NCBI RefSeq assembly: GCF_025602895.1
Contig: NW_026516216.1
Location: 186,001 to 250,000 of the forward strand
DNA length: 64,000 bases
Reading direction: 5' to 3'
From: Polychytrium aggregatum
Lineage: Eukaryota > Chytridiomycota > Chytridiomycetes > Polychytriales
Shown here: piece after piece, positions 5,966-29,775 of the stretch
Layout of the letters: every line of letters starts with the position of its first letter
Numbering within the stretch: the first letter of the stretch is position 1
Program-made: the position numbers and the translations under genes
The notes under the pieces: model-generated
What the model was told of the DNA's origin: nothing
Databases searched by the model: none
Seen by the model: the letters and a program-made list of their open reading frames with translations, nothing else

Positions 5966-7983
5966 GCTGTTGGAGACGCAGAAGTTGGTCAGCGATACGA
6001 TACGGATGGCGGCGAGGTGTCCAATTCAGAGAAAGCTGACGGCGTAGGCAATGGGACATCATGCTGAAACGACCACGAAGCTGGACTGCCACGCCATCCA
6101 TGGGCAACGGCGGGGAAACGAAAGTGCCACCCGATGGACGCAGGTCAAGCCAAGCACGACCGGCTGAGGATCGAAGTAGCTAACAGCAATGGGAGCAGCT
6201 ATATGTGGATCTCATGCGACCAGCACCGCCGATCGACAGGTGGAATGGGAACAGGCACTTACGTTATGATACTGTGTGAACTACGTACGAGTTATACGAC
6301 TCAGGTGGTAAGAGTACAGTTAGGCAGCGTGGTTCTGTTCGGCAAGTTCCAGGGTAACCAAGCAAATGTCAGTTACAAGACTATCGGATTTGCGAGGGTC
6401 GTTGCACCGAGATGCAACCGAGCAACAGCCCGGTCTGGGTGTCGATGGATTTCCAGGAATCACTGGGACAGACTGGTGGCGATACTCACATGATGCTGCG
6501 CAAGAGCCAGGAGAGGTGGAGTCCAGAACCAAGGCCAGATGCAATTGCGTCAAGACGTCCGGTGAGACGGCGACTCTGACGATCGGCTGGGAGATGGCCG
6601 TGGTGGGAACCTGCTGCGGCAATGCGGGTCGCCGCCAGGGCTTTTATTCTGGGGGGAGGACGGCAGAGTTTTTTTCCTTGGAGCGCAGATCTGATTTGAG
6701 GCCTTGTGCGTAACGGCGATAGCGGCGTTTGTCATCGTCTCGCTCGGTGCTCTCGCGTAGGGACCGAGGAGCCTTAGCGGCGTGCTGCGTGCGCACAGCG
6801 AAAATGGTCTCGGCGAGAGCAGTGCCAGGATGGCGAGAACCTCTGCCGTTATTAATGAACACTCGTCAAGCCGCGGCACCGTCGGCTGAATGGCGACATC
6901 GCAAGCCAATCACAAAGGCGGACAGGGGCGATGGTGCCATCGCCAGCCAAGCACCTTGCGAGGACATCACCAGCCAATCACAGGGCTCCTGGATCCTATC
7001 TTGGGAATCCCGCCGTTCTTGGGGGCGCTAAGTTTCTGTGGGTATACGACAAGCCTCAGCGTGGCCGCAATGTCAGCCGAGCAGCCACGTGTCGGGGGCA
7101 GGCTCCGAGCGGATCGAGCCAATCCTGCGAGTCAAATGGCTGGCCGTGGGAAAGCGCAGCCCTGGTCCGTTGAACATCGGGATGCTTCTGCGATGCATGA
7201 CGGGCATCTGTGGGGGACAGAGACCTTGAGGGGTTGATGTGGAGCGATCGACCGCAGTCCAGAGATGAGCCTGCGCGTCGGCTGCGGACGCCAGCCGAAG
7301 GCGGTCGCGGCGAAAGAGGTTGCCGTGCTGGTGAATGGTTCCGAGTCGAAACGCTGGCACGACGGAAGTGCCTCGAAGGCACTCAAGCGATGAGACCACT
7401 CAATGTCAGATGACCGATTGGGAACAGGATCACAAACGATTCACTGAAAAAACGAGACGCATGCACTCTCAGTGGACAAAGATGAGCTAACTCTCAAGTA
7501 GGAAGCACCGAAAGAGCGATGAATCAAGTATGCAGTGCACCGATGTCTCCTGAGAGAAATACAGGTCGGTGGCAACATTGCACAGTCACAGAAGAACGGG
7601 ACTAATGCAAGGGTTCGGTCAATCACAATGATCGGAATACTGGAGCGAATGTGCCCTGAAGAGAATGAGCAAATAGAAGAATGAGTGCATGAGGGAAAAT
7701 TGAATAAAGACACAAAAGTGACAACAAAAATGATTGAAGAACCGAAGGCAGAACCAAACAGCTACTGCACAAAGTGATGCAAGGGAATTAATGAATGCGC
7801 CGCGTGAATGAGAGGGGGAAGTGAATTGAAATATCAGAATCGATACGGAGAGGACAACACAGAACCCATTGGATGAAGCGGCAGAAGGGAAGCTTATGAG
7901 CACGGGAGAGCTTCAAACGACGAGTGTGAGGAAGCATGAGGCTCAATGAAACATCACAGAGTTTGACCAGGGCAATAGACACA
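5966..7983. other. Intergenic region, no gene recognised
   Basis: This 2-kb gap lies between the sulfite reductase fusion and the left palindrome arm. A minus-strand frame at 6644-6862 encodes a basic 72-residue peptide with no recognisable domain. 7400-7983 is more AT-rich and purine-biased than the rest and has no long frame. I see no RNA gene. Confidence 0.45.
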
Positions 7984-8286
7984 TCCAAGACCAGAACGAG
8001 ATGATGGAGATCGGAAGGACAAGCTTGATGGGGGGGGGGAAGTATTGGCGGCCAGTCCGGATGCGAGACAGCGAAGCACTGCATTGTGGACGGGGTGGCG
8101 AGTGGAGCGATGGAGCGATGGAGCCAGAGGGATGCACAGCAGCGCCGGGCCGACAAACACATCCAAGAACGAGAAACAGAAACACCAAAGAAACAGCGAG
8201 CACCGCCCAGACCCAGGGAAGACCGGCGGAAGATTCGACAGAGAGCCCAATGAGACAGGACGAGGCAAAATAGGAAAAATTGCTGG

Positions 8287-8358
8287 CGCCCGATAGGGGA
8301 CTCGAACCCCTAGCCTTGAGATTAAAAGTCTCACGCTCTACCATTGAGCTAACCGGGC
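8287..8358 (-). tRNA. tRNA-Lys (UUU), left arm copy 1
   Basis: This is a 72-nt cloverleaf with acceptor GCCCGGT/ATCGGGC, G73, a GGTTCGAGTCC T-arm and anticodon loop CTTTTAA (anticodon TTT). It is the second gene of a minus-strand Cys-Lys pair. A T5 run (pol III terminator) follows within about 15 nt, at roughly 8275-8280. Confidence 0.95.
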
Positions 8359-8396
8359 TCAAAGCTCGAGCTCTGTTGTTGAGACCACGAACTCAC

Positions 8397-8468
8397 AGGA
8401 CCCTCCCGGGATTGAACCGGGGACCTATCGATCTGCAGTCGATTGCTCTACCGCTGAGCTAAAGGTCC
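8397..8468 (-). tRNA. tRNA-Cys (GCA), left arm copy 1
   Basis: This is a 72-nt cloverleaf with acceptor GGACCTT/AGGGTCC, U73 as expected for Cys, and anticodon loop CTGCAGA (anticodon GCA). It lies 38 nt upstream of tRNA-Lys with no T4 run between them, so the two are probably one dicistronic pol III unit. An ATATATGCA TATA-like stretch lies about 30 nt upstream. Confidence 0.95.
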
Positions 8469-9004
8469 TTGCGAGCTCTTTCATTTTTGTGCATATATCA
8501 ACAGTACATTTGATCATATCTCCCGGTTTCGTTGCACTCCCGCCTTGGCCACCCGCCCCAGCCCCCGCACATTGCACCGCTGCAGCCCGCACATTGTACC
8601 ACCGCTGCCCGCTCGACCCTTGCTTTTGATCATGCTCTCATATATATTAACAACTCATATTTTCACCAACCCAATGTCTTTGTCTCAAGCGCCCCTCCCC
8701 CTCTTTGGCATCCCATAGTGCGCATCCACCGCCTGAGAAATATGGTATTCCTATCGTTGCCATGCGATCAGCACCACCAATATACTCTTCAAGGCCAATT
8801 CTCTCGTATGATATGAAATTTCCATTCGGTAGACCCACCTACTCGAAATTGACCATGATGATGTACAGGCCGTGATGAACCGGCGTAGACGCCGCATCGT
8901 CTGCATCTATCGGTGATCCACCGATGATCCGCCAGCAATTCACCAATGATCCCCCATCTGCACACATCCCCTGCTGGTTCCAACATACAAAGAGACATGA
9001 TCTC

Positions 9005-9075
9005 GCTCACAGCGGGCTCACAGCGGGCTCACAGCGGGCTCACAGCGGGCTCACAGCGGGCTCACAGCGGGCTCA
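9005..9075. repeat. 11-bp minisatellite
   Basis: About six consecutive copies of AGCGGGCTCAC. The mirrored copy lies at 22918-22988. Confidence 0.9.
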
Positions 9076-9202
9076 ACAAGAAGCCCATTCACACTCTTCC
9101 GCCCCCTCCCCAGAATATGTGTCTATCCCACTTCCAGTCCCAGCGGCCGGCCTTGCCCCTCCATCCCCTCCTTGTCCACTAATCTCGTCCGTCTCAACCC
9201 GT

Positions 9203-9259
9203 GTTCACCCACGTTCGTCCATGTTCGCCCATGTTCGCCCATGTTCGCCCATGTTCGCC
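9203..9259. repeat. 10-bp minisatellite
   Basis: About five copies of a CCCATGTTCG-type unit, the first ones diverged. Mirrored at 22734-22790. Confidence 0.85.
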
Positions 9260-9784
9260 GTTGTCCTGCTCGGTACATGGATTCGTGTGTGGACATCGAA
9301 CCATCGTGCGTGATTTGCGAAAATACAAAGAAAATTCATCAAGCAGAGTGTCCGCTGGGCGGAAACCCGGGCAATTTCGGTCATTGGAAGCCATGCCCAA
9401 GTCTGGTACGATTCAAGAGGATCTATGTGCCGATTAAATGCAGATCGTAGGGGCCAACTACGCGCCAATCGTACACTTGTGACCATGATCAAGCTCGATG
9501 AAGTATAACAATGAATCGTCGAGGTATATTCATCGCCGATGGTGCAAAAATGATGCTAATAACAATGATAATAACCATAATTGCTCGGCTCAGTAGCGCA
9601 TATTTCCAAATCGGCAAGATCAAAGACATAGCATCCTCATTTGATACACATTTGCGCGCTCGAGGACTGCTCTAGCCAGCTATCCCTGATACCATTGCCT
9701 AAACGCGCCTATCGCAGTTTCAAACAGCTTGCTTATAGGCTGCGCCATTATTGTTATTATAAACATGAGTCGCCCTGGAACTTT

Positions 9785-9848
9785 CGGATACAAATACTCG
9801 GATACAAATACTCGGATACAGATACTCGGATACAAATACTCGGATACC
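9785..9848. repeat. 14-bp minisatellite
   Basis: Between four and five copies of CGGATACAAATACT, one with a single substitution (GATACAGATACT). Mirrored at 22145-22208. Confidence 0.85.
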
Positions 9849-9892
9849 CGGACAGTCATGAAGTCAAAAGCAGTCCTATTAATCGTATTCGC

Positions 9893-10008
9893 CCTGTCGG
9901 TCTTGTCGGTTCTGTCGGCTCTGTCATTCTTGTCGATTCTTGACGGTTCTGTAGGCTCTGTCAATCTTATCGATTCTGTTGGCTCTGTCGGCTCCGTCAG
10001 TTCTGCCG
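9893..10008. repeat. 9-bp degenerate repeat
   Basis: A run of TTCTGTCGG/CTCTGTCGG-like units, read as repeated Leu-Ser-Val in one frame. Mirrored at 21985-22100. Confidence 0.75.
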
Positions 10009-11616
10009 CATGACAAAGCCGACTTTCCAGCTGCAAGAGTATGGTATATATTCTCCCTTCGGCGCATTCTTTGGTGCGTTGACGGATTGGCTTGGGACAA
10101 GACTCTGCCAGAGGACATCGCTCCGATGGATCAATCACCAACCATCGAAGCACCAAACCTTATGAGCCGTGTCTGGAAGGTTTTCTTGTACATTTTACCA
10201 TGGTAGTTATGGAGGCGGATGTAGGCTGCCATCGGATCCAAACTCTGTGATACATGATCGGTGGAGTCTGCGTCCCCCGCCAGAAAGATGGCGCGCCACA
10301 AATACCGATCCACAAACACCTATCTACAATGCAAAGCTACCTAGAGAGGAAAGCACTAGCTGCAGCAGAGATTGCGATAAATGAATGAATCAATGCCTAC
10401 GACGACTTATTACGCCGAAGCATCCCTTGTATAAAGCCTACGCTCGCCGTGTCTTTGTCGGTGCACCTCTTGGACCAACTTCCCTTAATGCATGATATAA
10501 TTCGGATACATCTGAAACCTACAATTTCACACCTCGCGCTGATTGCCGCGACTAAAATCAAAGATCTCCGCCATATTTCTTACGACTCTTTGATCCATTA
10601 GAGTATTGGCATTTCCAATCAAGGTTGCAATTTAGAGGCAAGTAAATGGGAGATGGCTCCAAGCAACAACGGGACTGACTGCTACTGAACAGATATATAC
10701 TTCATTTTATCCGCGGCGCTTTAATTCGAGTAGCAAGACCGTCATGGATGATCAATGTCTTGAATCAATCTTGGCCATGACTGGAGCTCAGCCAGCCAAG
10801 GGCGTGGAACCTCACTCACTTGATGTAGCAAGGATGGAACTGGCTAGCAGGTCGGAAAAAACCAAAGTTCAAAGACGATTTTCCCAAACATACGAAATGG
10901 CAGTGCCCCATTTTTATCAGTTTAGCTGGATTGATGAATGGACAGCAATACGATTTAGGACAGCATATTTTTGCCACACTCGATCCATTGATGCAATACA
11001 AAACGGCGAACACATCTATAGGGCTAAAATTACGGCATTCATACGAGTATCAAGTATTTATGAAGCCATTTCAGGTACTCTGTAGAAATTTTATCGATTG
11101 GTTGATGGTCCACAGTGCTCGGAACGAAACGGGACAGTGTGTCCCTGAGCGTCCCTCAGTGATCCGTAGACCCCAGTGGACGGGCCATGAGATTGCGCTC
11201 CAGTCCTAATTGGTAATTCGGCGGTTTGTTGGTTTCGGGAGCATCACCTTGAATACACTCGGTTAATCTGCTGTGGCGATGATCGACTAGAATGTTGCAA
11301 CACGGGAGTAGAGTTGCTTGTGTTCAACCATCTGGACAACTCCGGTATTTTTTGACATCAAGATAGTCGGGTGACGAGTCGCTCCGCCTCCAGTCTCCTT
11401 GGATACGCTGTTTGGCCATGACGAGCGATGAGTAGGTGTGTATTCTGCTCCTCCTCGCCCAAAGAACAACACATACACATACAAAAGTAACAGATCTGAC
11501 TCAAAAGCAAAGCCCCGTTTCGTTTTGGGCGCGATGCAAATGAATCCGTGAAATGTAGCATGTGGCGGGTGATACGCATGGGATAGAGCTGCGGTAATGA
11601 TTTTAAAATGTTCTGG

Positions 11617-11693
11617 CTGGCAAAAACCAACACCCAGTGCTAGATCCCGCCAGAGGCGCTAAGGCAAAGTCCTGATAGAGGCCCACACATTGA
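11617..11693 (+). repeat. Shared element upstream of the tRNA-Cys/Lys unit
   Basis: This ~76-bp segment aligns to the segment that, read on the minus strand, precedes tRNA-Val (13334-13409). Conserved blocks include CCAACAC.CAGTGC, CGCTAAGGCA.AGTC and ATTGACT. It ends 75 bp before tRNA-Cys. The mirrored copy lies at 20300-20376. Its function is unknown; it could be a promoter element or the relic of a tRNA-targeting transposon. Confidence 0.7.
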
Positions 11694-11768
11694 CTGATGG
11701 CAGGTGGTGAACTGACCAATAGGAAATGAAATGTTTATATATGCATAAAGAATATACAGACTCCATAA

Positions 11769-11840
11769 GGACCTTTAGCTCAGCGGTAGAGCAATCGACT
11801 GCAGATCGATAGGTCCCCGGTTCAATCCCGGGAGGGTCCT
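11769..11840 (+). tRNA. tRNA-Cys (GCA), left arm copy 2
   Basis: The sequence is identical to the copy at 8397-8468 but in the opposite orientation. Anticodon GCA, U73. A TATATATGCATAAAG stretch lies about 25-45 nt upstream. It is the first gene of a Cys-Lys pair. Confidence 0.95.
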
Positions 11841-11878
11841 GTGAGTTCGTGGTCTCAACTACAGAGCTCGAGCTTTGA

Positions 11879-11950
11879 GCCCGGTTAGCTCAATGGTAGA
11901 GCGTGAGACTTTTAATCTCAAGGCTAGGGGTTCGAGTCCCCTATCGGGCG
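11879..11950 (+). tRNA. tRNA-Lys (UUU), left arm copy 2
   Basis: 72 nt, anticodon TTT, 38 nt after tRNA-Cys. No T4 run lies in the spacer; the first T4 run downstream is about 20 nt past the 3' end. The spacer differs by one base from the spacer of the other Cys-Lys pair (ACTACAGAG versus ACAACAGAG). Confidence 0.95.
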
Positions 11951-13034
11951 CAATTTATTGCGTCCGATGTGTATTTTGCCGGTCGTTCTCAGTCCATCTG
12001 CTGAGCTTCAACTCCATAACCATATTCTGATTGTGGCATCTCCGAGGTTGTCTAGGACATCACTCACATTCTTTTTCCCAAATTTCGGTTTGGAAAACCT
12101 ACACTTCTATGTCTCATACAGTTGAATATTTCACACTACTTCGCCCCGATCAGCGCGCCAAGGACATACACCGTATCCAAGACGCAGGCTAGCTTGGGAT
12201 AAACTCGTGTTCACAGATCGAAATTAATTCGATAGCCCGTTTGCCTGATATTCCCATAACAGGTGATACGCTATCATGCATATTATCCCTCCCGTCTCCC
12301 TCCCATTAGCAGCTATTACAGCTAGTCGACGACATGTGCGGTACCGACTGATGGCTGGTTTGCTATTAACCGAAAAATAATTCGAGCGAACCTCACAAAC
12401 TGGTTGATGTGACTATTCGTATATAGCTTCACGAATTTTGCAAGGCCAAACAGGGTATTCTTTCGAATACAGGTCTCTCATTCGCTGATATTTCACTGTG
12501 CCAACCCCTCGCCCTCTAATTTGTCACTCTCCTATCGATCGCTTGCTACAATCAGCCATATATCTATAAATCGCGGAGATGCAAGAGAAAGAAGCAATAT
12601 GGCCAAGGCGGTCAAATTTTCCAAGCAAGAGCCAATAATTTAGCACACCAATGCAGCCTTTCATCAACCCCCGTTACAAACGCCAAGCCACCCTGCCCAG
12701 AACCCAAGTCACACGTCTCTTGCTCGCCTCACACTTGTAACCTCGGCTTTCCAAGGTCCCGTCTCCCTTGCTCTTGGCTATCTTGTTCACACTAACATAC
12801 TCCCCACGGCGACTAGAGGCCCTAAGCCGCCCCTCTCCCGCCAGAGCATCCTCAACCCCCTCCTTATCATGGGGGAGCGATTATATGTCCAACCAAGAGG
12901 GACCCAAGAATGAATGAATGAATAGTGCTATTTGATGGCGGCACAACGATTAACCAGTAACCGAAAATCGTGGTCGCACCAGAAGCCAAAGCAATGACGA
13001 GGACAGGATGCCAAAAAAATGAGTAAAGAAAAAT
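11951..13034. other. Palindrome arm, intergenic (mirrored at 18959-20042)
   Basis: AT-richer noncoding DNA between the Cys-Lys unit and the Val-Asp unit. No long frame and no RNA gene seen. A GAATGAATGAAT simple repeat lies near 12910. Confidence 0.6.
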
Positions 13035-13106
13035 CTCCCAAACAGGGAATCGAACCCTGGTCGCCCGCGTGACAGGCGGGAGTACTAGCCACTATACTAT
13101 TTGGGA
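13035..13106 (-). tRNA. tRNA-Asp (GUC), left arm
   Basis: 72 nt with acceptor TCCCAAA/TTTGGGA, G73 and anticodon loop CTGTCAC (anticodon GTC). It is the second gene of a minus-strand Val-Asp pair and is followed immediately by a T5 run that fits a pol III terminator. Confidence 0.95.
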
Positions 13107-13198
13107 TACTGTAATCACAACTGCTGGTCCTGCGACGCTCCCGAATCCAGACCCCAGTCCGGATATCCGAGAACAGCCGCAGAGGCCACCATCGTGTC

Positions 13199-13271
13199 TG
13201 CTTCTACTCGGGATCGAACCGAGGACCTTCTCCGTGTAAAGGAGACGTCCATTCCACTGGACTATAGAAGC
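13199..13271 (-). tRNA. tRNA-Val (UAC), left arm
   Basis: 73 nt with acceptor GCTTCTA/TAGAAGC, A73 and anticodon loop TTTACAC (anticodon TAC). No T4 run separates it from tRNA-Asp, which starts 92 nt downstream, so a dicistronic transcript is likely. Confidence 0.93.
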
Positions 13272-13333
13272 CCGTTGTTTGGCCGTTCGGCGTTTTCTGA
13301 CATCATGAAAATAGCCTTTCATCACAATGGTCT

Positions 13334-13409
13334 AGTCAATAGGTGGGTCATTACGACTCTGCCTTAGCGTCCTTTTTGGGCTCTGGCACTGCGTGTTGGC
13401 TTTTGCCAA
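13334..13409 (-). repeat. Shared element upstream of the tRNA-Val/Asp unit
   Basis: Read on the minus strand, this is the second diverged copy of the ~76-bp element at 11617-11693, about three quarters identical by eye. It ends about 62 bp before the 5' end of tRNA-Val. Mirrored at 18584-18659. Confidence 0.7.
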
Positions 13410-13938
13410 CCGGGACACCACAATGCTCTAGTTTATACCGCCTTGCTTTCGTCCCTGCTTCTGCCCCCCCCCATTTTGCTATTCAGGGCCTGCTTCTCGA
13501 ATCTTCCCAATTCCTCGATCGATTGCAACTGCAAATCCATACTTTCAGCTATTGTTGCGATCCTGGCTCCCATCTACCATCCCAGTATGACGCATCATCT
13601 TGGGTGGGTCTATTCTGGAACCACGTCTCTGGATATTCAGGGAACAGTGGCAGCCATCGAACTCGTCCAAATCACTCAGTGGACCGCATGTCTGTCGGAG
13701 CCTCCCTCCCTCCCTCTTTGTCCACCCATCTCGCTCTCACCCTTGAAGATGTCGGTGGCAGGAGATCCAGTGCAAGTACGTCTGCTATCAAGTCGGCTTC
13801 TTGATTCCTATCTGCGTCGCCGTTTATTCGTTGGCGTGCTCGTTTTTGTCGTACATCAATTGGCTCCCAGATCATGCATTCACATATGAAACCATCCTTT
13901 CAGATTCTCGCCAAGTCACGATTCTTTTCAGCAATCCC

Positions 13939-14615
13939 CTTTCAGGCCATCGCAAATCCGTTCCATATCGATAACTAGGCTGATATCGACCAGTGCCAAG
14001 ATGGTTGTCTCGTTTGCCCACTGCTCCTCGTGTTACAATAAATGGAAGCGTCCATCCCTCTCGTCCAAGACCAGTCGTGAAGGATTGTGTCTTGTCGCCA
14101 TTGAGAATCGTCTATAATTGAGGCGTATTCCTCCAGGCGGCGTCGCAAGTACATTTGAGGAACAACAGCTCGAGGCCTTAGGACTTCCCGGTCCACTTTA
14201 TCTGATTCTGATCATCCGCCCTCGTCATGGTTTCGAAGCCGAGGGCATACTTCATCACAAGTCACTGGCAGCGAAACGCACCACTCGCTCTTTTTCTCCT
14301 CCATATCCTTCTGATAGTCCACCACCATTCCCGTCGCTCTCCCCATGCTCCCCCTCAACATGCCAAATCTCTCTCCCTTCGTGTGCCGTTGGTTCTCGCA
14401 TCACCATTGTCGCCGCGGAATCGTCGCCCACAATGTCCTCGTTATGAGCAGCTTGGGAAAATTGATTTATTCATTATTCATTATGAACTTTCGAACTCTC
14501 CGCCTCTTTTCCCACCTCACGTCCATCCATTTTGAAGATCATTTCTGCTTAATTTGTTCAATGCTGCTATTTTGCCCTCCATATCATTCACTAGAATATT
14601 GCGGATGCGGGTGCA
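13939..14615. other. Unique centre, downstream flank of chitinase
   Basis: Single-copy DNA between the inner end of the left arm and the chitinase stop codon. No gene recognised. Confidence 0.55.
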
Positions 14616-16715
14616 TTAGTTGCCCCAGGCGGACGTAAGGCTGGAGAGGAGCTCGCCATTGTAGTCCTCAGAGAGCTCCCAGAACATGGTGCCACTGTAG
14701 CCGTTGGACTTGAGCCAGGCGGTCTTGGCAGCAATCGAGGTAGTGTCATCGTAGGAGATGAAGCGAGTACCGTCGGTGATGGTGGGGCTCTGGGCAAAGT
14801 TCCACCAGGTGCGGGTCCAGCTGGAGCCAGCGGTGGTGGGAGTGGTGAGGACACCCTGGGAGCGGAGGTTCAAGTACATCCAGACACCAGAGACATAGGA
14901 GCTGCCGCAAGGATCGGTCCAGAGAGCATCGAGCTGATCACCCTGGATGGGAGGGCAAGCAGTGGGGTTGGTGGCACTCTGACCGGCCTGGTTGCAGGGC
15001 TGGAAGAGACCGTTGTTGACGGTGGCTTCAGAGGCAGTGATACCCCACGAGCGACCGTAGAAGGCAACACCACCAACAAGCTGGTTCTTGGCAACACCGT
15101 TGGCAGTGTAGTTGTTCATGGCAGTGGCAATCGAGAACTGAACGTTTCCGAACTGGAGGTTGCCGGCAGGGCGCTGGGGGTCGCTGGCACCAGGGAGCTG
15201 AAGAGGAGAGTTGAAGTCGGTGTAGGGGACCCAGGAACCGTAGAAATCGTAGGTCATGACCTGGAAGTAGCTAAGGTACTTGGCGTACTGGGTCAGGTAG
15301 TTGACGCCGTTGACGTAGTAACGCGAGGGCTCAGCAGAAGCGGCAATCGAGAGAATACGGCTGGGGCCAAGAGCCTGGCGAAGCGCAGCCAGGAGGTTGA
15401 CAAAGTTGGCAGCATCGTTGGCGTTGACGTGGTTGCAGGGAAGACCGCCACCTCCGGGGTACTCCCAGTCGAGATCGAGACCATCGATCCAGAACTGGTC
15501 GAGGAAGGCAACGACCTGGGTGGCAAAGTTGTTGATGGCAGTGGAGCTGGCAGCAACATCCGAGAAGGTGCCAGAGAGCGACCAGCCACCAACCGAGATG
15601 ACAGTGCGGAGGTTGGGGTTGGCAGCGCGGGCAGCCATGAAGTTGGCAATGCCCTTGTTCTGACCACTGTAGGGGTCAATGGTCCAAGGAGCAGTGGCGC
15701 TGCTTCCACCGAAATCGGCCCAGGGATCGTAACTGTAGAGGGTACCATCGGACTTGACACCGAAGAAGGCGTAGTTCAGGACATTGACCTTGGAGACATT
15801 GATCACATTGGGGTTGTTCTGGGAACGGGTGTAGAGACCCCAGTCGGGCCAGTAGCCGACAACACCGACGTTGCCGCCGCCATAGTTCGGGGCGGGACGG
15901 GGAGTGAAAGTCGGGATGGTGGAAACATCACAGGGACCGAGATCAGCCCAGGTGCCACTGGTACCATTGGGAGTGGTGCCCTTGTTGGCGTAGTAGTTGG
16001 CCTGGTAGAGATGGCCGTTGTAGGTGACTCTGGCCCCCTGCAAATAATCGATGGTTGGATCCCAAAGGGTAGTGCAGGGCTGGAGGGTGCCGGTGGGGGA
16101 GGCAGAAGTGGTGGTGGTGGTCTTAGAGGGTGTGGTAGTAGTAGTAGTAGTGGTGGTGGTGGTAGTGGTTGTCTTGGAAGGGGAGGTGGTTGTCGAGCTG
16201 CTGGTGGTGGTGAGGCTGCTCTTGGTAGTAGAGGACTTGGTGGTTGAAGACTTGGTAGTGGTAGTGGTAGTTGTGGTGGTTGTGGTGGTAGTAACACCCT
16301 TGCCGGGGAAGTCGCAGTACTGGGCACAGATATAGATATAGTCAGATCACCATTCTTTCCATCGAACAAAGCTCCATCATGAACATGGGGCGAGGACTTA
16401 CCACACTGGCGCCGTTCTGGTAGCAGGCTGTGCCGGCACCGCAGCTCATCGTAATGAGTCCACCATCTGCGCAAGGTAGAGTATTAGATATGGTTTGAAA
16501 CACAACACCGTTGCCAGCCACGAGCAATTCGCGAAAACATGGCGCTGCGCCGGGAACAGCCAGAGGAAGTGTGCGTAAGGGAGCTGAAACATACTGAGGC
16601 AGATGGTGTACGAGGCCGAGACACCAGGGCTAACACAAGTGTATGCCGAGCCAGTGCAAGACTGAGCCAGGGCGCTCGAGGCGAGGAGGGCAAGGCCCGC
16701 AATACGAGGAATCAT
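14616..16715 (-). CDS. Secreted GH18 chitinase with CBM19 and CBM5/12
   Basis: Three exons: 16595-16715, 16402-16466 and 14616-16319 (629 aa, phases close). Residues 1-18 are a signal peptide (MIPRIAGLALLASSALAQ). Residues ~19-70 are a Cys-rich chitin-binding CBM19 (CLNGGLITMSCGAGTACY), assembled across both introns. Residues ~70-143 are a Thr/Ser linker written in ACC/ACT runs. Residues ~146-190 are a CBM5/12 (VTYNGHLYQANYYANKG). The GH18 barrel follows: YWPDWG at 218, then DGLDLDWEYPG with catalytic Glu348, the acid of the DxxDxDxE motif. It hydrolyses beta-1,4-GlcNAc polymers outside the cell, for wall remodelling or for digesting chitinous substrates. It is the only protein gene in the unique centre of the giant palindrome. 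Donor sites are GTATGT and GTAAGT. Family assignment is secure; biological role is inferred. Confidence 0.93.
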
Positions 16716-18054
16716 AGAAGAGGAGGGGAAGAGGCGAGAGGCAGATGCCGGTGTTGGAGAGCGGACACTGGTCAAGAAGCAGACCGAGGCTCGCTTTTTT
16801 ATGTCGCGGGTGGGCTGCAAGCCAGCGACAGGACGGAAACGACTGGGGACTGCCCAAGCAGACGACGGCGGACAGACACGGCACATGACGCTCCCCATCG
16901 AGGTGGGGTCTGCAATGCCCGGCTCGGGTGACGGCGACACAGCCGTCGGTCGCTGCGCGGTTCGCGAACCCCATCGCGCATCTCGGGGCGGTTGTGGTGA
17001 GTCCTGGCGGATTGGCCGCGCACAAGCGGCGTGACCAGGTCCCATGCCCAGGACTGAGCGAGCGGGCTGGCACGGGTTGCTTCGACCAGCTGCCGATCGG
17101 GAGAACGTTGTGGTCATTCGACAGACCGCGTCACATCGAACGATGCGCGCTGGGGGGATTCATCCACCCGACCGACGCTGCAGCCGCGTGGGAAGCGAGG
17201 GAAAACGGCAAAGGCACGAGACCCGGTCGCGGCATCGCAATCGAGGCCCTTGCGCGGTGGCTCAGACCGGGGTGGGTCGGGCAACCCGCCAGCAATGCTC
17301 CCCTGCTCATCACACGATCGCATGGTCAGCAGCAGCAGAGCACCCTCAGTCAACGGGATATCCAGCTAATCTCACCGGCGCAGTTGCTTGGCGGCCACGC
17401 CCAGACATGTGATGTGCCCAGGCAAGGTCGGGATGGGGACGGCGGCCATGGCGACGGCGTAGGCAGTCGCGTGAGTTGCTCTGCGAAGCAGACCTGTGTC
17501 TGGACCGAGGACGAGCGGGGGCAAGCTGCTCTGTCGGAGCCATAGTGACAGGAGAGATACCGACGCGATCGATACGGGAAACTCAGTATGTCGGGATGAA
17601 GGCCGAAAGCCAAAGTGCAACTGAGCTATGTGTTATGTCGGGCTACAAGGAGAGTGATGACGATTCCTTTCCCGCCGTCAAACAACGTTCGTTGTGCGGT
17701 CGCTGCCTTGTTCCCGAGGCATTCGGCCTGAAGCGTCTCCCAACATCTTGAGGCAAGGCATAGCCGTTGATTCAAGCAGCTCGTTGCCTTCATTGATTCG
17801 ATACACACTCGCCAATCCACCGCGACCACACCCTCAACTAGTGGATGTTGGTCTCGAGGGGGCATATGAACACCACGCCAGAGATCAAGGTGAGGCGGCG
17901 GACCGATTCTTCAATACGGCGACCACCAGCATCGATATTTGGGTGCTGAAGGAACCCAGATGATAGGACCTCGAGACCGATCCCATCCGGCTACCTTGAT
18001 GGCTTGTCAAACACTCAATGAGCTTCAAACGCACTCAGACGAATATGATCGACC
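16716..18054. other. Unique centre, upstream flank of chitinase
   Basis: 1.3 kb of single-copy DNA between the chitinase start and the inner end of the right arm. It presumably holds the chitinase promoter. The frames present on both strands show no recognisable domain. Confidence 0.5.
16794..16803 (-). promoter_or_regulatory. TATA-like element of chitinase gene
   Basis: CATAAAAAAG on the minus strand, about 80-90 nt upstream of the chitinase ATG at 16715. Position fits a core promoter; no other support. Confidence 0.35.
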
Positions 18055-18721
18055 GGGATTGCTGAAAAGAATCGTGACTTGGCGAGAATCTGAAAGGATG
18101 GTTTCATATGTGAATGCATGATCTGGGAGCCAATTGATGTACGACAAAAACGAGCACGCCAACGAATAAACGGCGACGCAGATAGGAATCAAGAAGCCGA
18201 CTTGATAGCAGACGTACTTGCACTGGATCTCCTGCCACCGACATCTTCAAGGGTGAGAGCGAGATGGGTGGACAAAGAGGGAGGGAGGGAGGCTCCGACA
18301 GACATGCGGTCCACTGAGTGATTTGGACGAGTTCGATGGCTGCCACTGTTCCCTGAATATCCAGAGACGTGGTTCCAGAATAGACCCACCCAAGATGATG
18401 CGTCATACTGGGATGGTAGATGGGAGCCAGGATCGCAACAATAGCTGAAAGTATGGATTTGCAGTTGCAATCGATCGAGGAATTGGGAAGATTCGAGAAG
18501 CAGGCCCTGAATAGCAAAATGGGGGGGGGCAGAAGCAGGGACGAAAGCAAGGCGGTATAAACTAGAGCATTGTGGTGTCCCGGTTGGCAAAAGCCAACAC
18601 GCAGTGCCAGAGCCCAAAAAGGACGCTAAGGCAGAGTCGTAATGACCCACCTATTGACTAGACCATTGTGATGAAAGGCTATTTTCATGATGTCAGAAAA
18701 CGCCGAACGGCCAAACAACGG

Positions 18722-18794
18722 GCTTCTATAGTCCAGTGGAATGGACGTCTCCTTTACACGGAGAAGGTCCTCGGTTCGATCCCGAGTAGAAGCA
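18722..18794 (+). tRNA. tRNA-Val (UAC), right arm
   Basis: Mirror copy of 13199-13271, identical. First gene of the Val-Asp unit. Confidence 0.93.
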
Positions 18795-18886
18795 GACACG
18801 ATGGTGGCCTCTGCGGCTGTTCTCGGATATCCGGACTGGGGTCTGGATTCGGGAGCGTCGCAGGACCAGCAGTTGTGATTACAGTA

Positions 18887-18958
18887 TCCCAAATAGTATA
18901 GTGGCTAGTACTCCCGCCTGTCACGCGGGCGACCAGGGTTCGATTCCCTGTTTGGGAG
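18887..18958 (+). tRNA. tRNA-Asp (GUC), right arm
   Basis: Mirror copy of 13035-13106, identical, followed by T5 within 10 nt. Confidence 0.95.
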
Positions 18959-20042
18959 ATTTTTCTTTACTCATTTTTTTGGCATCCTGTCCTCGTCATT
19001 GCTTTGGCTTCTGGTGCGACCACGATTTTCGGTTACTGGTTAATCGTTGTGCCGCCATCAAATAGCACTATTCATTCATTCATTCTTGGGTCCCTCTTGG
19101 TTGGACATATAATCGCTCCCCCATGATAAGGAGGGGGTTGAGGATGCTCTGGCGGGAGAGGGGCGGCTTAGGGCCTCTAGTCGCCGTGGGGAGTATGTTA
19201 GTGTGAACAAGATAGCCAAGAGCAAGGGAGACGGGACCTTGGAAAGCCGAGGTTACAAGTGTGAGGCGAGCAAGAGACGTGTGACTTGGGTTCTGGGCAG
19301 GGTGGCTTGGCGTTTGTAACGGGGGTTGATGAAAGGCTGCATTGGTGTGCTAAATTATTGGCTCTTGCTTGGAAAATTTGACCGCCTTGGCCATATTGCT
19401 TCTTTCTCTTGCATCTCCGCGATTTATAGATATATGGCTGATTGTAGCAAGCGATCGATAGGAGAGTGACAAATTAGAGGGCGAGGGGTTGGCACAGTGA
19501 AATATCAGCGAATGAGAGACCTGTATTCGAAAGAATACCCTGTTTGGCCTTGCAAAATTCGTGAAGCTATATACGAATAGTCACATCAACCAGTTTGTGA
19601 GGTTCGCTCGAATTATTTTTCGGTTAATAGCAAACCAGCCATCAGTCGGTACCGCACATGTCGTCGACTAGCTGTAATAGCTGCTAATGGGAGGGAGACG
19701 GGAGGGATAATATGCATGATAGCGTATCACCTGTTATGGGAATATCAGGCAAACGGGCTATCGAATTAATTTCGATCTGTGAACACGAGTTTATCCCAAG
19801 CTAGCCTGCGTCTTGGATACGGTGTATGTCCTTGGCGCGCTGATCGGGGCGAAGTAGTGTGAAATATTCAACTGTATGAGACATAGAAGTGTAGGTTTTC
19901 CAAACCGAAATTTGGGAAAAAGAATGTGAGTGATGTCCTAGACAACCTCGGAGATGCCACAATCAGAATATGGTTATGGAGTTGAAGCTCAGCAGATGGA
20001 CTGAGAACGACCGGCAAAATACACATCGGACGCAATAAATTG

Positions 20043-20114
20043 CGCCCGATAGGGGACTCGAACCCCTAGCCTTGAGATTAAAAGTCTCACGCTCTACCAT
20101 TGAGCTAACCGGGC
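20043..20114 (-). tRNA. tRNA-Lys (UUU), right arm copy 1
   Basis: Mirror copy of 11879-11950, identical. Confidence 0.95.
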
Positions 20115-20152
20115 TCAAAGCTCGAGCTCTGTAGTTGAGACCACGAACTCAC

Positions 20153-20224
20153 AGGACCCTCCCGGGATTGAACCGGGGACCTATCGATCTGCAGTCGATT
20201 GCTCTACCGCTGAGCTAAAGGTCC
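20153..20224 (-). tRNA. tRNA-Cys (GCA), right arm copy 1
   Basis: Mirror copy of 11769-11840, identical. The shared upstream element lies at 20300-20376. Confidence 0.95.
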
Positions 20225-23200
20225 TTATGGAGTCTGTATATTCTTTATGCATATATAAACATTTCATTTCCTATTGGTCAGTTCACCACCTGCCATCAGT
20301 CAATGTGTGGGCCTCTATCAGGACTTTGCCTTAGCGCCTCTGGCGGGATCTAGCACTGGGTGTTGGTTTTTGCCAGCCAGAACATTTTAAAATCATTACC
20401 GCAGCTCTATCCCATGCGTATCACCCGCCACATGCTACATTTCACGGATTCATTTGCATCGCGCCCAAAACGAAACGGGGCTTTGCTTTTGAGTCAGATC
20501 TGTTACTTTTGTATGTGTATGTGTTGTTCTTTGGGCGAGGAGGAGCAGAATACACACCTACTCATCGCTCGTCATGGCCAAACAGCGTATCCAAGGAGAC
20601 TGGAGGCGGAGCGACTCGTCACCCGACTATCTTGATGTCAAAAAATACCGGAGTTGTCCAGATGGTTGAACACAAGCAACTCTACTCCCGTGTTGCAACA
20701 TTCTAGTCGATCATCGCCACAGCAGATTAACCGAGTGTATTCAAGGTGATGCTCCCGAAACCAACAAACCGCCGAATTACCAATTAGGACTGGAGCGCAA
20801 TCTCATGGCCCGTCCACTGGGGTCTACGGATCACTGAGGGACGCTCAGGGACACACTGTCCCGTTTCGTTCCGAGCACTGTGGACCATCAACCAATCGAT
20901 AAAATTTCTACAGAGTACCTGAAATGGCTTCATAAATACTTGATACTCGTATGAATGCCGTAATTTTAGCCCTATAGATGTGTTCGCCGTTTTGTATTGC
21001 ATCAATGGATCGAGTGTGGCAAAAATATGCTGTCCTAAATCGTATTGCTGTCCATTCATCAATCCAGCTAAACTGATAAAAATGGGGCACTGCCATTTCG
21101 TATGTTTGGGAAAATCGTCTTTGAACTTTGGTTTTTTCCGACCTGCTAGCCAGTTCCATCCTTGCTACATCAAGTGAGTGAGGTTCCACGCCCTTGGCTG
21201 GCTGAGCTCCAGTCATGGCCAAGATTGATTCAAGACATTGATCATCCATGACGGTCTTGCTACTCGAATTAAAGCGCCGCGGATAAAATGAAGTATATAT
21301 CTGTTCAGTAGCAGTCAGTCCCGTTGTTGCTTGGAGCCATCTCCCATTTACTTGCCTCTAAATTGCAACCTTGATTGGAAATGCCAATACTCTAATGGAT
21401 CAAAGAGTCGTAAGAAATATGGCGGAGATCTTTGATTTTAGTCGCGGCAATCAGCGCGAGGTGTGAAATTGTAGGTTTCAGATGTATCCGAATTATATCA
21501 TGCATTAAGGGAAGTTGGTCCAAGAGGTGCACCGACAAAGACACGGCGAGCGTAGGCTTTATACAAGGGATGCTTCGGCGTAATAAGTCGTCGTAGGCAT
21601 TGATTCATTCATTTATCGCAATCTCTGCTGCAGCTAGTGCTTTCCTCTCTAGGTAGCTTTGCATTGTAGATAGGTGTTTGTGGATCGGTATTTGTGGCGC
21701 GCCATCTTTCTGGCGGGGGACGCAGACTCCACCGATCATGTATCACAGAGTTTGGATCCGATGGCAGCCTACATCCGCCTCCATAACTACCATGGTAAAA
21801 TGTACAAGAAAACCTTCCAGACACGGCTCATAAGGTTTGGTGCTTCGATGGTTGGTGATTGATCCATCGGAGCGATGTCCTCTGGCAGAGTCTTGTCCCA
21901 AGCCAATCCGTCAACGCACCAAAGAATGCGCCGAAGGGAGAATATATACCATACTCTTGCAGCTGGAAAGTCGGCTTTGTCATGCGGCAGAACTGACGGA
22001 GCCGACAGAGCCAACAGAATCGATAAGATTGACAGAGCCTACAGAACCGTCAAGAATCGACAAGAATGACAGAGCCGACAGAACCGACAAGACCGACAGG
22101 GCGAATACGATTAATAGGACTGCTTTTGACTTCATGACTGTCCGGGTATCCGAGTATTTGTATCCGAGTATCTGTATCCGAGTATTTGTATCCGAGTATT
22201 TGTATCCGAAAGTTCCAGGGCGACTCATGTTTATAATAACAATAATGGCGCAGCCTATAAGCAAGCTGTTTGAAACTGCGATAGGCGCGTTTAGGCAATG
22301 GTATCAGGGATAGCTGGCTAGAGCAGTCCTCGAGCGCGCAAATGTGTATCAAATGAGGATGCTATGTCTTTGATCTTGCCGATTTGGAAATATGCGCTAC
22401 TGAGCCGAGCAATTATGGTTATTATCATTGTTATTAGCATCATTTTTGCACCATCGGCGATGAATATACCTCGACGATTCATTGTTATACTTCATCGAGC
22501 TTGATCATGGTCACAAGTGTACGATTGGCGCGTAGTTGGCCCCTACGATCTGCATTTAATCGGCACATAGATCCTCTTGAATCGTACCAGACTTGGGCAT
22601 GGCTTCCAATGACCGAAATTGCCCGGGTTTCCGCCCAGCGGACACTCTGCTTGATGAATTTTCTTTGTATTTTCGCAAATCACGCACGATGGTTCGATGT
22701 CCACACACGAATCCATGTACCGAGCAGGACAACGGCGAACATGGGCGAACATGGGCGAACATGGGCGAACATGGACGAACGTGGGTGAACACGGGTTGAG
22801 ACGGACGAGATTAGTGGACAAGGAGGGGATGGAGGGGCAAGGCCGGCCGCTGGGACTGGAAGTGGGATAGACACATATTCTGGGGAGGGGGCGGAAGAGT
22901 GTGAATGGGCTTCTTGTTGAGCCCGCTGTGAGCCCGCTGTGAGCCCGCTGTGAGCCCGCTGTGAGCCCGCTGTGAGCCCGCTGTGAGCGAGATCATGTCT
23001 CTTTGTATGTTGGAACCAGCAGGGGATGTGTGCAGATGGGGGATCATTGGTGAATTGCTGGCGGATCATCGGTGGATCACCGATAGATGCAGACGATGCG
23101 GCGTCTACGCCGGTTCATCACGGCCTGTACATCATCATGGTCAATTTCGAGTAGGTGGGTCTACCGAATGGAAATTTCATATCATACGAGAGAATTGGCC

Positions 23201-23524
23201 TTGAAGAGTATATTGGTGGTGCTGATCGCATGGCAACGATAGGAATACCATATTTCTCAGGCGGTGGATGCGCACTATGGGATGCCAAAGAGGGGGAGGG
23301 GCGCTTGAGACAAAGACATTGGGTTGGTGAAAATATGAGTTGTTAATATATATGAGAGCATGATCAAAAGCAAGGGTCGAGCGGGCAGCGGTGGTACAAT
23401 GTGCGGGCTGCAGCGGTGCAATGTGCGGGGGCTGGGGCGGGTGGCCAAGGCGGGAGTGCAACGAAACCGGGAGATATGATCAAATGTACTGTTGATATAT
23501 GCACAAAAATGAAAGAGCTCGCAA

Positions 23525-23596
23525 GGACCTTTAGCTCAGCGGTAGAGCAATCGACTGCAGATCGATAGGTCCCCGGTTCAATCCCGGGAGGGTCCT
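23525..23596 (+). tRNA. tRNA-Cys (GCA), right arm copy 2
   Basis: Mirror copy of 8397-8468, identical. Confidence 0.95.
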
Positions 23597-23634
23597 GTGA
23601 GTTCGTGGTCTCAACAACAGAGCTCGAGCTTTGA

Positions 23635-23706
23635 GCCCGGTTAGCTCAATGGTAGAGCGTGAGACTTTTAATCTCAAGGCTAGGGGTTCGAGTCCCCTAT
23701 CGGGCG
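23635..23706 (+). tRNA. tRNA-Lys (UUU), right arm copy 2
   Basis: Mirror copy of 8287-8358, identical, followed by a T5 run. Confidence 0.95.
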
Positions 23707-24008
23707 CCAGCAATTTTTCCTATTTTGCCTCGTCCTGTCTCATTGGGCTCTCTGTCGAATCTTCCGCCGGTCTTCCCTGGGTCTGGGCGGTGCTCGCTGT
23801 TTCTTTGGTGTTTCTGTTTCTCGTTCTTGGATGTGTTTGTCGGCCCGGCGCTGCTGTGCATCCCTCTGGCTCCATCGCTCCATCGCTCCACTCGCCACCC
23901 CGTCCACAATGCAGTGCTTCGCTGTCTCGCATCCGGACTGGCCGCCAATACTTCCCCCCCCCATCAAGCTTGTCCTTCCGATCTCCATCATCTCGTTCTG
24001 GTCTTGGA

Positions 24009-24415
24009 CAATCTCGATGCACTCTTGGTCATAGTTGCTGACTTCCTGTCGATCATTCCAGTGCTGCATGACCTTTGTTGCCCATTGCCGTATTTCTGAG
24101 TCCCCTTCGACACAGGCCCATATCTGGGGTTCAATGGCGATGCAAACTAGCACTTTATATATAAACAGGTCGAATCATACACAGGCTCAAAATGGATAAA
24201 GGTTACATTCCAAGGAGTGAGAACAGCAAAGGGAAGGTATGGAGTAACGTGAAGGCTAGAGAATGCTCGATGTATCGCTGCTTAAGTTCCAAAGGGCTGC
24301 GCTGAATGGGGGATTGGGAGGCAGGAATCGGAATGGAGGGGGGGGGAGGGGCAAGGGTGGCTGACAAACAAATAGAAAAGTGTAGGAAATTACAGAAGAA
24401 AGTGCCGAACCGAGA
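24009..24415. other. Intergenic, right arm to importin alpha 3' end
   Basis: Unique DNA just outside the palindrome, presumably holding the importin alpha 3' untranslated region. No gene seen. Confidence 0.5.
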
Positions 24416-26945
24416 TTATTGTCCTCCAAACTGGAAGCCGCCTTGGGGAACGTGCATGTTGACATCCGACGGGAAGGCAAAGGTTCCAGCAGCTTCGTCG
24501 ACCTCAGGACCAAGCTCATTTTCGTCATCGCCATCGCCAAAGTACTTGTCAATGATACCGTAGGACTTCTTGTAGATGTCGGCGTTGTCGTGGAGCTGGA
24601 GCTGGTGAATCTTCTCCATACCGCCGGCCTCCTCGACAAAGATGGCCATCTGGTTGACGCCGTTGGTCAGATGCTTGTCGGCCTCGCCAACCTTGAGAAT
24701 GTTTTCCAGGCCATCCATAGCAACTTGGATGATCTTGGGATCGCCCGAGCCCAGCAAATCGCAAAGTGGCTTGATGGCACCTTGACTGACCAGGTATCTG
24801 TTGTTCACGTAAACCATCAGCTGCTGTCCAACCAACGAGGCCAAGAATCAAGAATAGCCTCCCTCATACCTGATCTGATCAGGCTTCTGCAAGCCACCGG
24901 AGGTGGCGTTAGAAATCGCCCAGCACGCCTCCTTCTTGGTCTTGAAGTCTCCGCGGCCCAGGGTATCAATAAGCGGCGGGATGAGGTTGGCATCAATGAT
25001 GGCCTGTAGGAGGGATCAAAAGACGGTGTTGTCCATTTTTAGTTTCCTCAACACGCAGGAGGGAGTTCTCGTGCCACCGGGCCATGGTCAGGATCAACTA
25101 CCGCAAGAATACCGATTGACTCACCTGAATCTGGGACGAGTTTCCGGCCGTGATGTTGGAGATGGTCCAGCAGGTTTCCTTGCGGATGCCATCCTTGGGG
25201 GAACTCAGGAGCGAGAGCAGGGCCGTCAGGGCGCCGGAGTTGATGATGACCTGGGTCTGAATATCATCGCCAGTGACAATGTTGCCGACGGATCGCAGAG
25301 CAGGGGTCTGCACGGCATACTGGGGGTGCATCAGGAGCTCGACAAGGCGACGGCAGACGCCAGCCTCGATGACGGCCTGGATCTTCTCGTTGGCACCATC
25401 AGACAGGTACGAGATGGCCCAGCAGGCATCGGTCAGGATCTCTTCATCGTTGGCATAGATGAGCTTGGCAAGGATGGGAAGGGCAGGCGAGATCTGTGCG
25501 GATGGTTATGTAAGCTTTCGACAGAACTCCTTTCAGACTCGGACGTTGTCCTGCACCGCTATCCTGAGAGGTGCGCCTACCATCTGCCACTCGGGCTGAG
25601 GGTTCTTGCCACGACAGAAGTTCGAGAGGGTCCAGGTGGCGTTGCGGAGCATCGACAGCTTGTTGCTGGGCTCGTTAAGGATGGAGAGCAGGGGCTGGAG
25701 AGCACCGCATCTCAGGACATAGTCTCGGCAAGTCGGGCTGTCGCCAGCAATGTTACCAAGCGCCCAAACGACCTGTTCCTGGACCTCTGCGACAGGCGAG
25801 GTCAACAGCTCGACAAAGATCGGCACGGCGCCGTTGTCGACGACGACTTGAGTTTGTTGCGACGAGCCCGAAGCAATGTTTGTCAGTGCCCATGCAGCTT
25901 CGAACTACATTCAAGGCACAAACAGACCAGAGTCAGCGAGCAGATCATATGCAGGGATTGAGTCACTGGAGTCGGGTGTGCCGCTGCAACTCGACAGTGG
26001 CGACTACGCGCCAACGACCGGTCTTGTCGCTTACCTGGAGCTTGGGGTTGGGCGAGCGGAGGAACTCGACAAATCTCGGGAGAACGCCACAGGCAATGAC
26101 TTGCTCGATAGGAGGGTTACGTTCTGGTGTCGAAGGAGACAGGCTCGTTAGACCGCTTGATCGTGACGGGGAAAGGATACAGAATATGTGGTATCTCTGC
26201 TCGGCGAGATTCGGCACAAAACTCACCCTTGGACAGCAGCTTTCTGAAGCGGGTGGTGGCCTCGAGCTGCAGCTCCACATCGGAAGAGATGACGCCGCTG
26301 ATCATTTCAGGGAACTCGTCCTAAGAAGCAGCACCGCAACGGTCAGCCCTTGCGCACACAGTCGCCATACGGCTCACTCGGCGGATTGATTATGGTATGG
26401 CTTTGGACGAAGCCGTCTCACGAGAAGCCGCTGCAATCGCCCATGAAGGCAGCAGAGCACCCGAGGCATTTGGCACCGCAAACGAGAGTCATGCTTCGGA
26501 CACCATTCAGTCCCGATTGGCACTCGGGTGCCAAAACACACAGAGGCAGAGGGGCAGGAAGCCAAAGGCAAAACAGACCGACCGACCGACCGACCGACAG
26601 ACAGACAGACAGACATATAGACAAACAGATAGACAGACCGACAGACAGACAGACTGACAGAAAACAGGCGGACATCGACAGCCGCCCGAGGGTCGGCTGG
26701 GCTGGGCTGGGCTGGGCGAATAGCAAGCCTACCTGGGTGGCAGTCTTGGTCGAGCTCTCGTCCTCGCTGTCCGAGCCGACAGCATTCTCGTTGAAGTTGC
26801 GCTTCTTGGCCATCTGCTCCTCACGCTTTTGCTTGCGAATTTCAACAGCAGCCTCCTCGCGGCGGCGACGCAGTTCATCCTGCTTCAGGTCGCCGCGGTT
26901 CTTGTACTGGTTGAGACGGTGGCCAAACTTGTTTCCTTCCATCAT
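24416..26945 (-). CDS. SRP1: Importin subunit alpha (karyopherin alpha)
   Basis: Seven exons: 26733-26945, 26227-26320, 26035-26123, 25581-25904, 25125-25493, 24870-25003 and 24416-24797. They give 534 aa, the usual family length. The adaptor binds classical nuclear localisation signals and hands cargo to importin beta. The N-terminus is a basic IBB domain ([17 protein letters not shown], then an RRRREE block). About ten ARM repeats follow, with the characteristic [45 protein letters not shown] and WAISNATSG helices that bind the NLS. The acidic end ([13 protein letters not shown]) corresponds to the CAS-binding tail region. The first ATG of two adjacent ones (26945/26942) is chosen. Intron 1 (26321-26732) contains a GACC/GACA microsatellite. 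Confidence 0.95.
26576..26656. repeat. GACC/GACA tetranucleotide microsatellite in importin alpha intron 1
   Basis: A run of GACC units is followed by GACA units with a few TAGA interruptions. A short GGGCT array follows at 26696-26718. Confidence 0.9.
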
Positions 26946-29376: not shown

Positions 29377-29775
29377 GGTTTCGGGGCGGCAGTATATGGG
29401 GTCTGCGAATGAGCGAAAGCGGTGGAGAGTGTAAGAAGTACAGAGCGGACGGGCTGCCGACCTGCGCTGGCGCCCGAAGGAGAGAAAGGGTGTGGGAGGG
29501 CTTTAAGCTGACTGCCTGGGCTGCGCGAGAGGGGCCAGGCGCTGGCGGGGCCAATCCAGCCACACATGACAGCATGAGCTTCTGGGCTTTCACATGATTG
29601 TGGTGCTGGACGAAACAAGACGAAGAATTTGGGACGAGCGCTCCTCGCGAGAACGTCGGCCGAGAACGCGCTCCTCTCGCTCGTCCCAAATTCTTCATGG
29701 TGATCATCCTTCGTTATGGCTTTCATTTGCCCCACAGGGTCTTTCGCCAGCCGCACACAGACGATCTGCCTCACC
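29377..29775. other. Divergent promoter, ACAD / ZNHIT2
   Basis: 399 bp between two divergent start codons. It contains a perfect 19-bp inverted repeat (29622-29696). Confidence 0.7.
29622..29696. repeat. Perfect 19-bp inverted repeat in a divergent promoter
   Basis: GAAGAATTTGGGACGAGCG at 29622-29640 and its exact reverse complement at 29678-29696 flank a 37-nt GC-rich centre. The centre contains the related strings GCGCTCCTCGCGAGAACG and GAGAACGCGCTCCTCTCG. It lies 80 bp before the ZNHIT2 start. Confidence 0.85.

Follow-up and report, generated by a model that had tools for sequence, protein, structure and literature searches.

A spaced inverted repeat bearing tRNA genes around a chitinase frame, and other mirrored tRNA clusters, in Polychytrium aggregatum

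In the palindromes of ape Y chromosomes, long near-identical inverted arms surround a unique spacer and are homogenised by arm-to-arm gene conversion. At the centromeres of Schizosaccharomyces pombe, a core of a few kilobases lies between near-identical inverted repeats that bear transfer RNA (tRNA) genes. Here we describe a locus with likenesses to both, in a 64-kb stretch of the Polychytrium aggregatum genome (hereafter the window; contig C46, positions 186001-250000, in an assembly of 64,678,306 bases and 418 contigs). The window contains two long inverted arms that match at ~99% or more and flank a unique spacer, as is characteristic of gene-converting palindromes; the spacer holds a chitinase frame, and the arms carry clusters of tRNA genes. 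This spaced inverted repeat probably arose by local inverted duplication of a tRNA cluster, as one of many such loci in this genome, with its arms homogenised by gene conversion.

Architecture and tRNA cargo of the inverted repeat

Comparing the window with itself (self-BLAST) recovered one long inverted repeat, in which 18055-24008 aligned with 13938-7984 at 99.983% over 5955 columns, with 0 mismatches and 1 gap. This bears out the inverted arms, with a single indel, that an initial annotation had placed here. The parts are as follows, copy number being given among the matches listed.

7984..13938, + strand: left arm, 5955 bp (self-BLAST; no other full copy)
18055..24008, - strand: right arm, 5954 bp (self-BLAST; no other full copy)
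13939..18054, no strand: centre between the arms, 4116 bp (its only full-length match in the assembly is itself; the rest are partial)

The length of the arms excludes a chance origin of their identity, and homology ends at all four arm edges. The sole gap lies at arm position 47, in a poly-G run that counts 10 G in the left arm and 9 in the right, and this difference is possibly a consensus error. The palindrome occupies 193,984-210,008 of C46, which extends to at least base 886,689, and thus sits inside a large contig. When the assembly was searched with the left arm, the best 40 of 492 candidates comprised both arms, the repeat nested inside them and otherwise short matches, many of which fall on the arm's tRNA genes or on a dispersed 90-bp repeat, with no further full arm copy among them. 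A mobile palindromic element was considered and rejected, as among these 40 the arms recur at no other place and only short matches do. The right flank (24009-30000) had no full-length match but itself among the matches listed in the assembly search, and the left flank (1-7983) had no match elsewhere within the window in the self-comparison.

ARAGORN and Rfam each detected 12 tRNA genes in the window, and all of them (12/12) lie inside the arms, six per arm. Read from its outer end, each arm starts with Lys(TTT) and Cys(GCA), continues with a second such pair in inverted orientation (Cys-Lys), and finishes on the inner side with Asp(GTC) and Val(TAC). The initial annotation had given the arm coordinates correctly and had overlooked these six genes per arm, together with the nested inverted repeat and the short tandem arrays described below. 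Both programs support every gene listed here.

8284..8358, - strand: tRNA-Lys(TTT)
8396..8469, - strand: tRNA-Cys(GCA)
11768..11841, + strand: tRNA-Cys(GCA), second in the left arm
11879..11951, + strand: tRNA-Lys(TTT), second in the left arm
13035..13106, - strand: tRNA-Asp(GTC)
13199..13271, - strand: tRNA-Val(TAC)
18722..18794, + strand: tRNA-Val(TAC), mirror copy
18887..18958, + strand: tRNA-Asp(GTC), mirror copy
20042..20114, - strand: tRNA-Lys(TTT), mirror of 11879-11951
20152..20225, - strand: tRNA-Cys(GCA), mirror of 11768-11841
23524..23597, + strand: tRNA-Cys(GCA), mirror of 8396-8469
23635..23709, + strand: tRNA-Lys(TTT), mirror of 8284-8358

Besides the long arms, the only inverted repeats in the window (E <= 1e-10, at least 100 bp) are a nested 229-bp pair within each arm, formed by the two Lys-Cys pairs and including 185 bp at 99% complementarity. 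The arms also hold short tandem arrays, and their sameness in both arms suggests that the last homogenisation or duplication was recent.

8286..8511, + strand, with partner 11724-11951, - strand: nested inverted repeat of the left arm (Lys-Cys pair), 94.3% over 229 columns (self-BLAST)
23482-23707 / 20042-20269: right-arm mirror of the nested inverted repeat
8994..10010, no strand: short tandem arrays with units of ~9, 11 and 14 bp, identical between both arms
13334..13417, + strand, with an inverted copy at 11609-11695: dispersed ~90-bp repeat, both copies mirrored in the right arm

The ~90-bp repeat has matches on many contigs, among them C13 (in the outer arms), C266 (close to either end) and C367 (next to the tRNA genes). 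With a permissive threshold, Rfam added a single match to the tRNA genes, and that one scored far under its gathering score. Frames in the arms run up to 173 amino acids; the one searched against Pfam, of 149 amino acids, had no match.

Mirrored tRNA clusters elsewhere in the assembly

Four places where the left-arm search gave neighbouring matches on opposite strands (C334, C13, C266 and C358) were fetched first, and further pairs were obtained with the Rfam tRNA model and by searching the assembly with tRNA-bearing sequences. The window belongs to a class of mirrored clusters, i.e., tRNA genes in both of two inverted arms, within ~25 kb, with the arms alike beyond the tRNA genes. At C334, arms bearing Met-Glu-Asp match at 99.5% over 1041 columns and lie 13.2 kb apart. 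C13 carries two pairs, an outer one (Glu-Asp; 1221 columns, 98.5%, 22 kb apart) and, nested in it, an inner one (Gln and Phe; 885 bp, 98.4%, 2.4 kb apart). Together with the nesting in the window, this points to more than one event at one place. The pieces compared at C113 match at 98.5% over 921 columns, with no mismatch and one 14-bp gap, those at C157:567k and C15 are identical (100%) over 948 and 963 bp, and the inner flanks at C356 and C416 agree at 250/250 positions each. Near-identity of the arms (98.4-100%) thus extends beyond the tRNA genes in 9 of the 12 pairs compared base by base (C266 excluded), with partial arm sequence compared for five of these nine. C358 holds direct repeats, not inverted ones. 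Among the four pairs for which all arm ends are known (the window, C334, and the outer and inner pairs of C13), only the window has arms that reach 5.95 kb. The palindrome had initially been called rare; this fails for the genome at hand, where mirrored tRNA clusters are frequent.

The two nested pairs at C13 show a conversion-like distribution of mismatches. In the outer pair, all 14 mismatches (14/14) and all four gaps fall in the outer 332 of 1218 bp (Kolmogorov-Smirnov (KS) test against a uniform distribution, p = 5e-8), and the remaining 886 bp, which include the tRNA genes, have 0 mismatches. In the inner pair, 12 of 14 mismatches fall in the outer 244 of 885 bp (KS test against uniform, p = 5e-6). 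This crowding is what would be expected if conversion covers most of the arm and spares its outer end, since a duplication that simply aged would spread its differences evenly. At C334 there are three mismatches, at 16, 19 and 990 of 1041, and gaps at 845 and 973. By analogy with this class of mirrored clusters, conversion may be acting on the window arms as well.

Inverted arrangement also prevails in number. Counting neighbouring matches of the same isotype, at most 30 kb apart on one contig, gave 18 inverted and 4 direct tRNA loci, with the inverted pairs ~2-23 kb apart (binomial p = 0.004, equal chance being the null expectation). If two inverted loci whose known likeness is confined to the tRNA gene are set aside, the count is 16 to 4 (p = 0.012), and when the loci that prompted the survey (four inverted, two direct) are also removed it is 12 to 2 (p = 0.013). 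The tally was made by hand after merging redundant contigs, on sequence for C312/C70 (200 bp), C356/C367 (250 bp, one side) and C114/C40/C18 (2 kb, against C266), and solely by matching spacing or offsets for C15/C333, C157:154k/C416, C39/C257, C409/C279 and C32/C235; some tRNA positions were derived by hand from alignment offsets. C157:297300 was counted as direct, and C266 was not counted, since it may be an artefact. Pairs whose two tRNA scores differed were omitted, namely three inverted ones, C18/C37 (60-71 kb), C40/C114 (13-14 kb) and C235 (255-269 kb), and one direct pair, C411 (23-53 kb). Within 219 kb of contiguous sequence, all inverted repeats of at least 100 bp (7/7) overlap tRNA genes; this figure is no unbiased background, because 155 kb of that sequence had been picked for tRNA pairs and the window makes up the remaining 64 kb.

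Some further features of these contigs were observed. On C312, C70, C222, C225, C18, C40, C114 and C37, tRNA matches lie at similar distances from the contig starts, within the first ~5-22 kb, and they represent either subtelomeric tRNA clusters or contigs broken at mirrored repeats. C266:1-25149 is palindromic end to end, with arms of ~12.4 kb matching at 99.07% and 391 bp between them. A piece of its left arm equals C114:2773-4823 (100%), and the mirror piece of its right arm and C40:2772-4805 score equally against that piece. C266 looks like two near-identical contig ends joined head to head, or else it is a real hairpin-like end. On C13, an element of ~3.74 kb (743656-747399) ends ~60 bp outside a tRNA arm and recurs in at least 28 other places at 95-97%, 25 of them nearly full length. 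It contains a DDE_3 transposase frame and a second frame matching a Cas12f1-like TNB domain, the latter presumably TnpB/Fanzor-like.

Origin of the arms, their centre and their neighbours

Inverted duplication of a tRNA cluster could begin when replication or repair at that site changes over to the opposite strand or turns back onto it; the cluster would then be copied in reverse, leaving an inverted second copy, and conversion between the arms would afterwards keep the copies alike. The excess of inverted loci may come partly from recombinational deletion of direct pairs. Crossing over between direct repeats is reported to delete, and between inverted repeats only to flip (PMC6895784). One locus bears on how a spacer and an arm come together. 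Most of the spacer in the inner pair of C13, from 763060 as far as the right arm's inner edge (765198), recurs at 99% identity as C301:354197-356336; that match breaks off no more than three bases from the edge and leaves the arm out. On this single case, one template-switching event may have produced both the C13 spacer and its inverted arm. The copied spacer carries a leucine-rich-repeat gene.

Several observations weigh against an origin by duplication followed by conversion. The mismatch pattern comes from two nested pairs at one place, and the arms of the window, being without mismatch, carry no conversion signal of their own, so that a single recent duplication fits them equally. Three of the 12 pairs lack near-identical arms: the C32 pieces agree over 88 bp only, roughly the tRNA gene, the inner flanks at C157:285k match at 89% over 241 columns, and those at C367 are alike for only 45 bp beyond the tRNA genes. 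C356 and C367 match at 99.6% over 250 bp on one side and are possibly two versions of one locus, in which case the 12 pairs are not all independent. Direct tRNA pairs do occur (two on C358, one on C28, one on C157), and the tRNA list behind the orientation count is a sample, namely the best 63 of 1357 candidates scored with the Rfam tRNA model.

One competitor is a single very recent inverted duplication with no later conversion, in which the likeness to other loci would reflect frequent breakage and duplication of tRNA clusters. The lack of any mismatch across 5954 aligned bases, among them the short tandem arrays, agrees with it; however, age alone leaves the strongly uneven mismatches of the two C13 sister pairs unexplained, and we regard this competitor as unlikely. 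The arm-to-arm gene conversion put forward in the initial annotation accordingly gains support from the C13 pairs, and within the window it is indistinguishable from recent copying. It is very unlikely that the second arm is an assembly artefact, derived from a fold-back read or a mis-joined haplotype. Redundant contigs do exist in this assembly (C331 repeats part of C13, and C70 and C312 share a spacer piece), C266 is itself palindromic throughout with a left-arm piece equal to an end of C114, and the comparison of the left flank covered the window alone. Against an artefact, other loci also have mirrored tRNA arms, with mismatches of their own, and the arm, the centre and the right flank have no copy on another contig among the matches listed. 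Two false joins in register would be needed, because the 4.1-kb centre is unique and the contig continues on both sides; the palindrome does not reach a contig end, and its arms do not meet without a spacer.

Two functional readings were also considered. The size and layout of the locus resemble those of S. pombe centromeres, and the arms are more AT-rich than the window taken as a whole (guanine-cytosine content 0.46-0.54 per kb, against 0.569). A regional centromere of the fission-yeast type, i.e., a core bordered on both sides by tRNA-bearing inverted repeats, is nonetheless extremely improbable here: the core contains a chitinase frame, and with three mirrored tRNA loci on C157 and two nested ones on C13 there are too many per contig for a single centromere on each chromosome, on which ground this candidate was rejected. 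We give scarcely more credit to an inversion switch, in which recombination between the arms would flip the chitinase and alter its expression. The anatomy permits it, and in Candida albicans long inverted repeats are reported to invert the sequence between them (PMC6591007), just as a MAT region flanked by inverted repeats flips in some methylotrophic yeasts (PMC5499181). The sister loci, however, enclose unrelated genes (a leucine-rich-repeat frame in the inner pair of C13, a WD40 frame at C334), and the sole comparable sister spacer, shared by the redundant contigs C312 and C70, has the same orientation in both over the 200 bp compared. C331 (14,981 bp) repeats only the left part of C13, again in the same orientation. 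A switch of chitinase orientation, which the initial annotation had raised as a speculative alternative, thus finds no support.

The centre itself contains the following gene.

14616..16346 including the stop codon (14619-16346 without it), - strand: GH18 chitinase frame, with upstream exons possible

This frame matches PF00704 (E 4.6e-66), and CBM_5_12 at a sub-threshold 24.4 bits (cut-off 26.2). The initial annotation had described the centre as holding a chitinase and nothing else; a second frame exists there, for which Pfam gave no match (two centre frames were searched, the chitinase and this one). Among the matches listed in the search with the centre, relatives of the chitinase at 86-94% occur three times on C57 and once on C68, where the matches begin near the stop codon and stop short of the arms. 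Its nearest solved structures are 5gzu and 1itx, which we take to be bacterial enzymes, and a Rhizomucor enzyme ranked lower; the gene is possibly an old transfer from bacteria. With respect to the arms, the chitinase is probably a bystander.

Outside the palindrome, one frame at 1271-5965 (- strand) joins sirohaem-synthesis domains to a sulfite-reductase-like flavoprotein (Pfam NAD_binding_7, Sirohm_synth, TP_methylase, POR_N and FAD_binding_1), presumably resembling a fusion of MET8/MET1 with MET10. A fragment of importin-alpha lies at 24416-24844, its best solved relative being 4rxh, presumably a Neurospora protein, which agrees with a fungal source.

Comparison with known systems

Each ingredient of this locus is already known. 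Their joint occurrence, as mirrored clusters of several tRNA genes at many places in a single genome, was not found in a limited literature search: among the papers listed, no title or abstract described mirrored nuclear tRNA clusters. The many pairs form a natural set of parallel loci for studying conversion, including where its tracts end and what polarity it has, and for testing whether tRNA clusters seed inverted duplications. They are also a warning, as such arms are natural sites for inversions and assembly errors. We raise, with considerable doubt, a broader possibility: a large share of nuclear tRNA clusters might be kept as mirror pairs genome-wide, in a layout maintained because conversion repairs the tRNA genes. 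On this view the clusters would do for tRNA genes what palindromes do on Y chromosomes, and the genes in the spacers would be passengers able to flip.

With the palindromes of ape Y chromosomes, the locus shares long, near-identical inverted arms around a unique spacer; here, in contrast, the cargo is tRNA genes, the arms are ~1-6 kb where measured, and the loci are spread over many contigs. Unlike the centromeres of S. pombe, the mirrored clusters occur at several loci per contig, and the core in the window contains a gene. Inverted-repeat centromeres are also described in yeasts (PMC5499181). Similarly, C. albicans has dispersed inverted repeats of high identity, between which the sequence inverts (PMC6591007). 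The novel repeats of that study exclude known repetitive elements such as tRNAs and emphasise repeats of open reading frames, whereas tRNA clusters are the common cargo here; one of its figure legends does name tRNA among the features within long repeats (PMC6591007).

The tRNA genes of Dictyostelium discoideum are likewise partly paired or tripled with the same anticodon, but the description concerns genes, not multi-gene clusters in long arms, and states no orientation (PMC8163159). The long-term likeness of multi-copy tRNA genes has been attributed to concerted evolution through ectopic gene conversion (PMC4981973). Finally, origin-dependent inverted-repeat amplification (ODIRA) and similar inverted amplification by template switching have in common with our proposal a replication-error route to inverted copies, and in one discussion, changes in copy number are traced in part to replication forks that stall at tRNA genes (PMC11790251, PMC4689423). 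The difference from ODIRA is that here two inverted copies flank a unique spacer.

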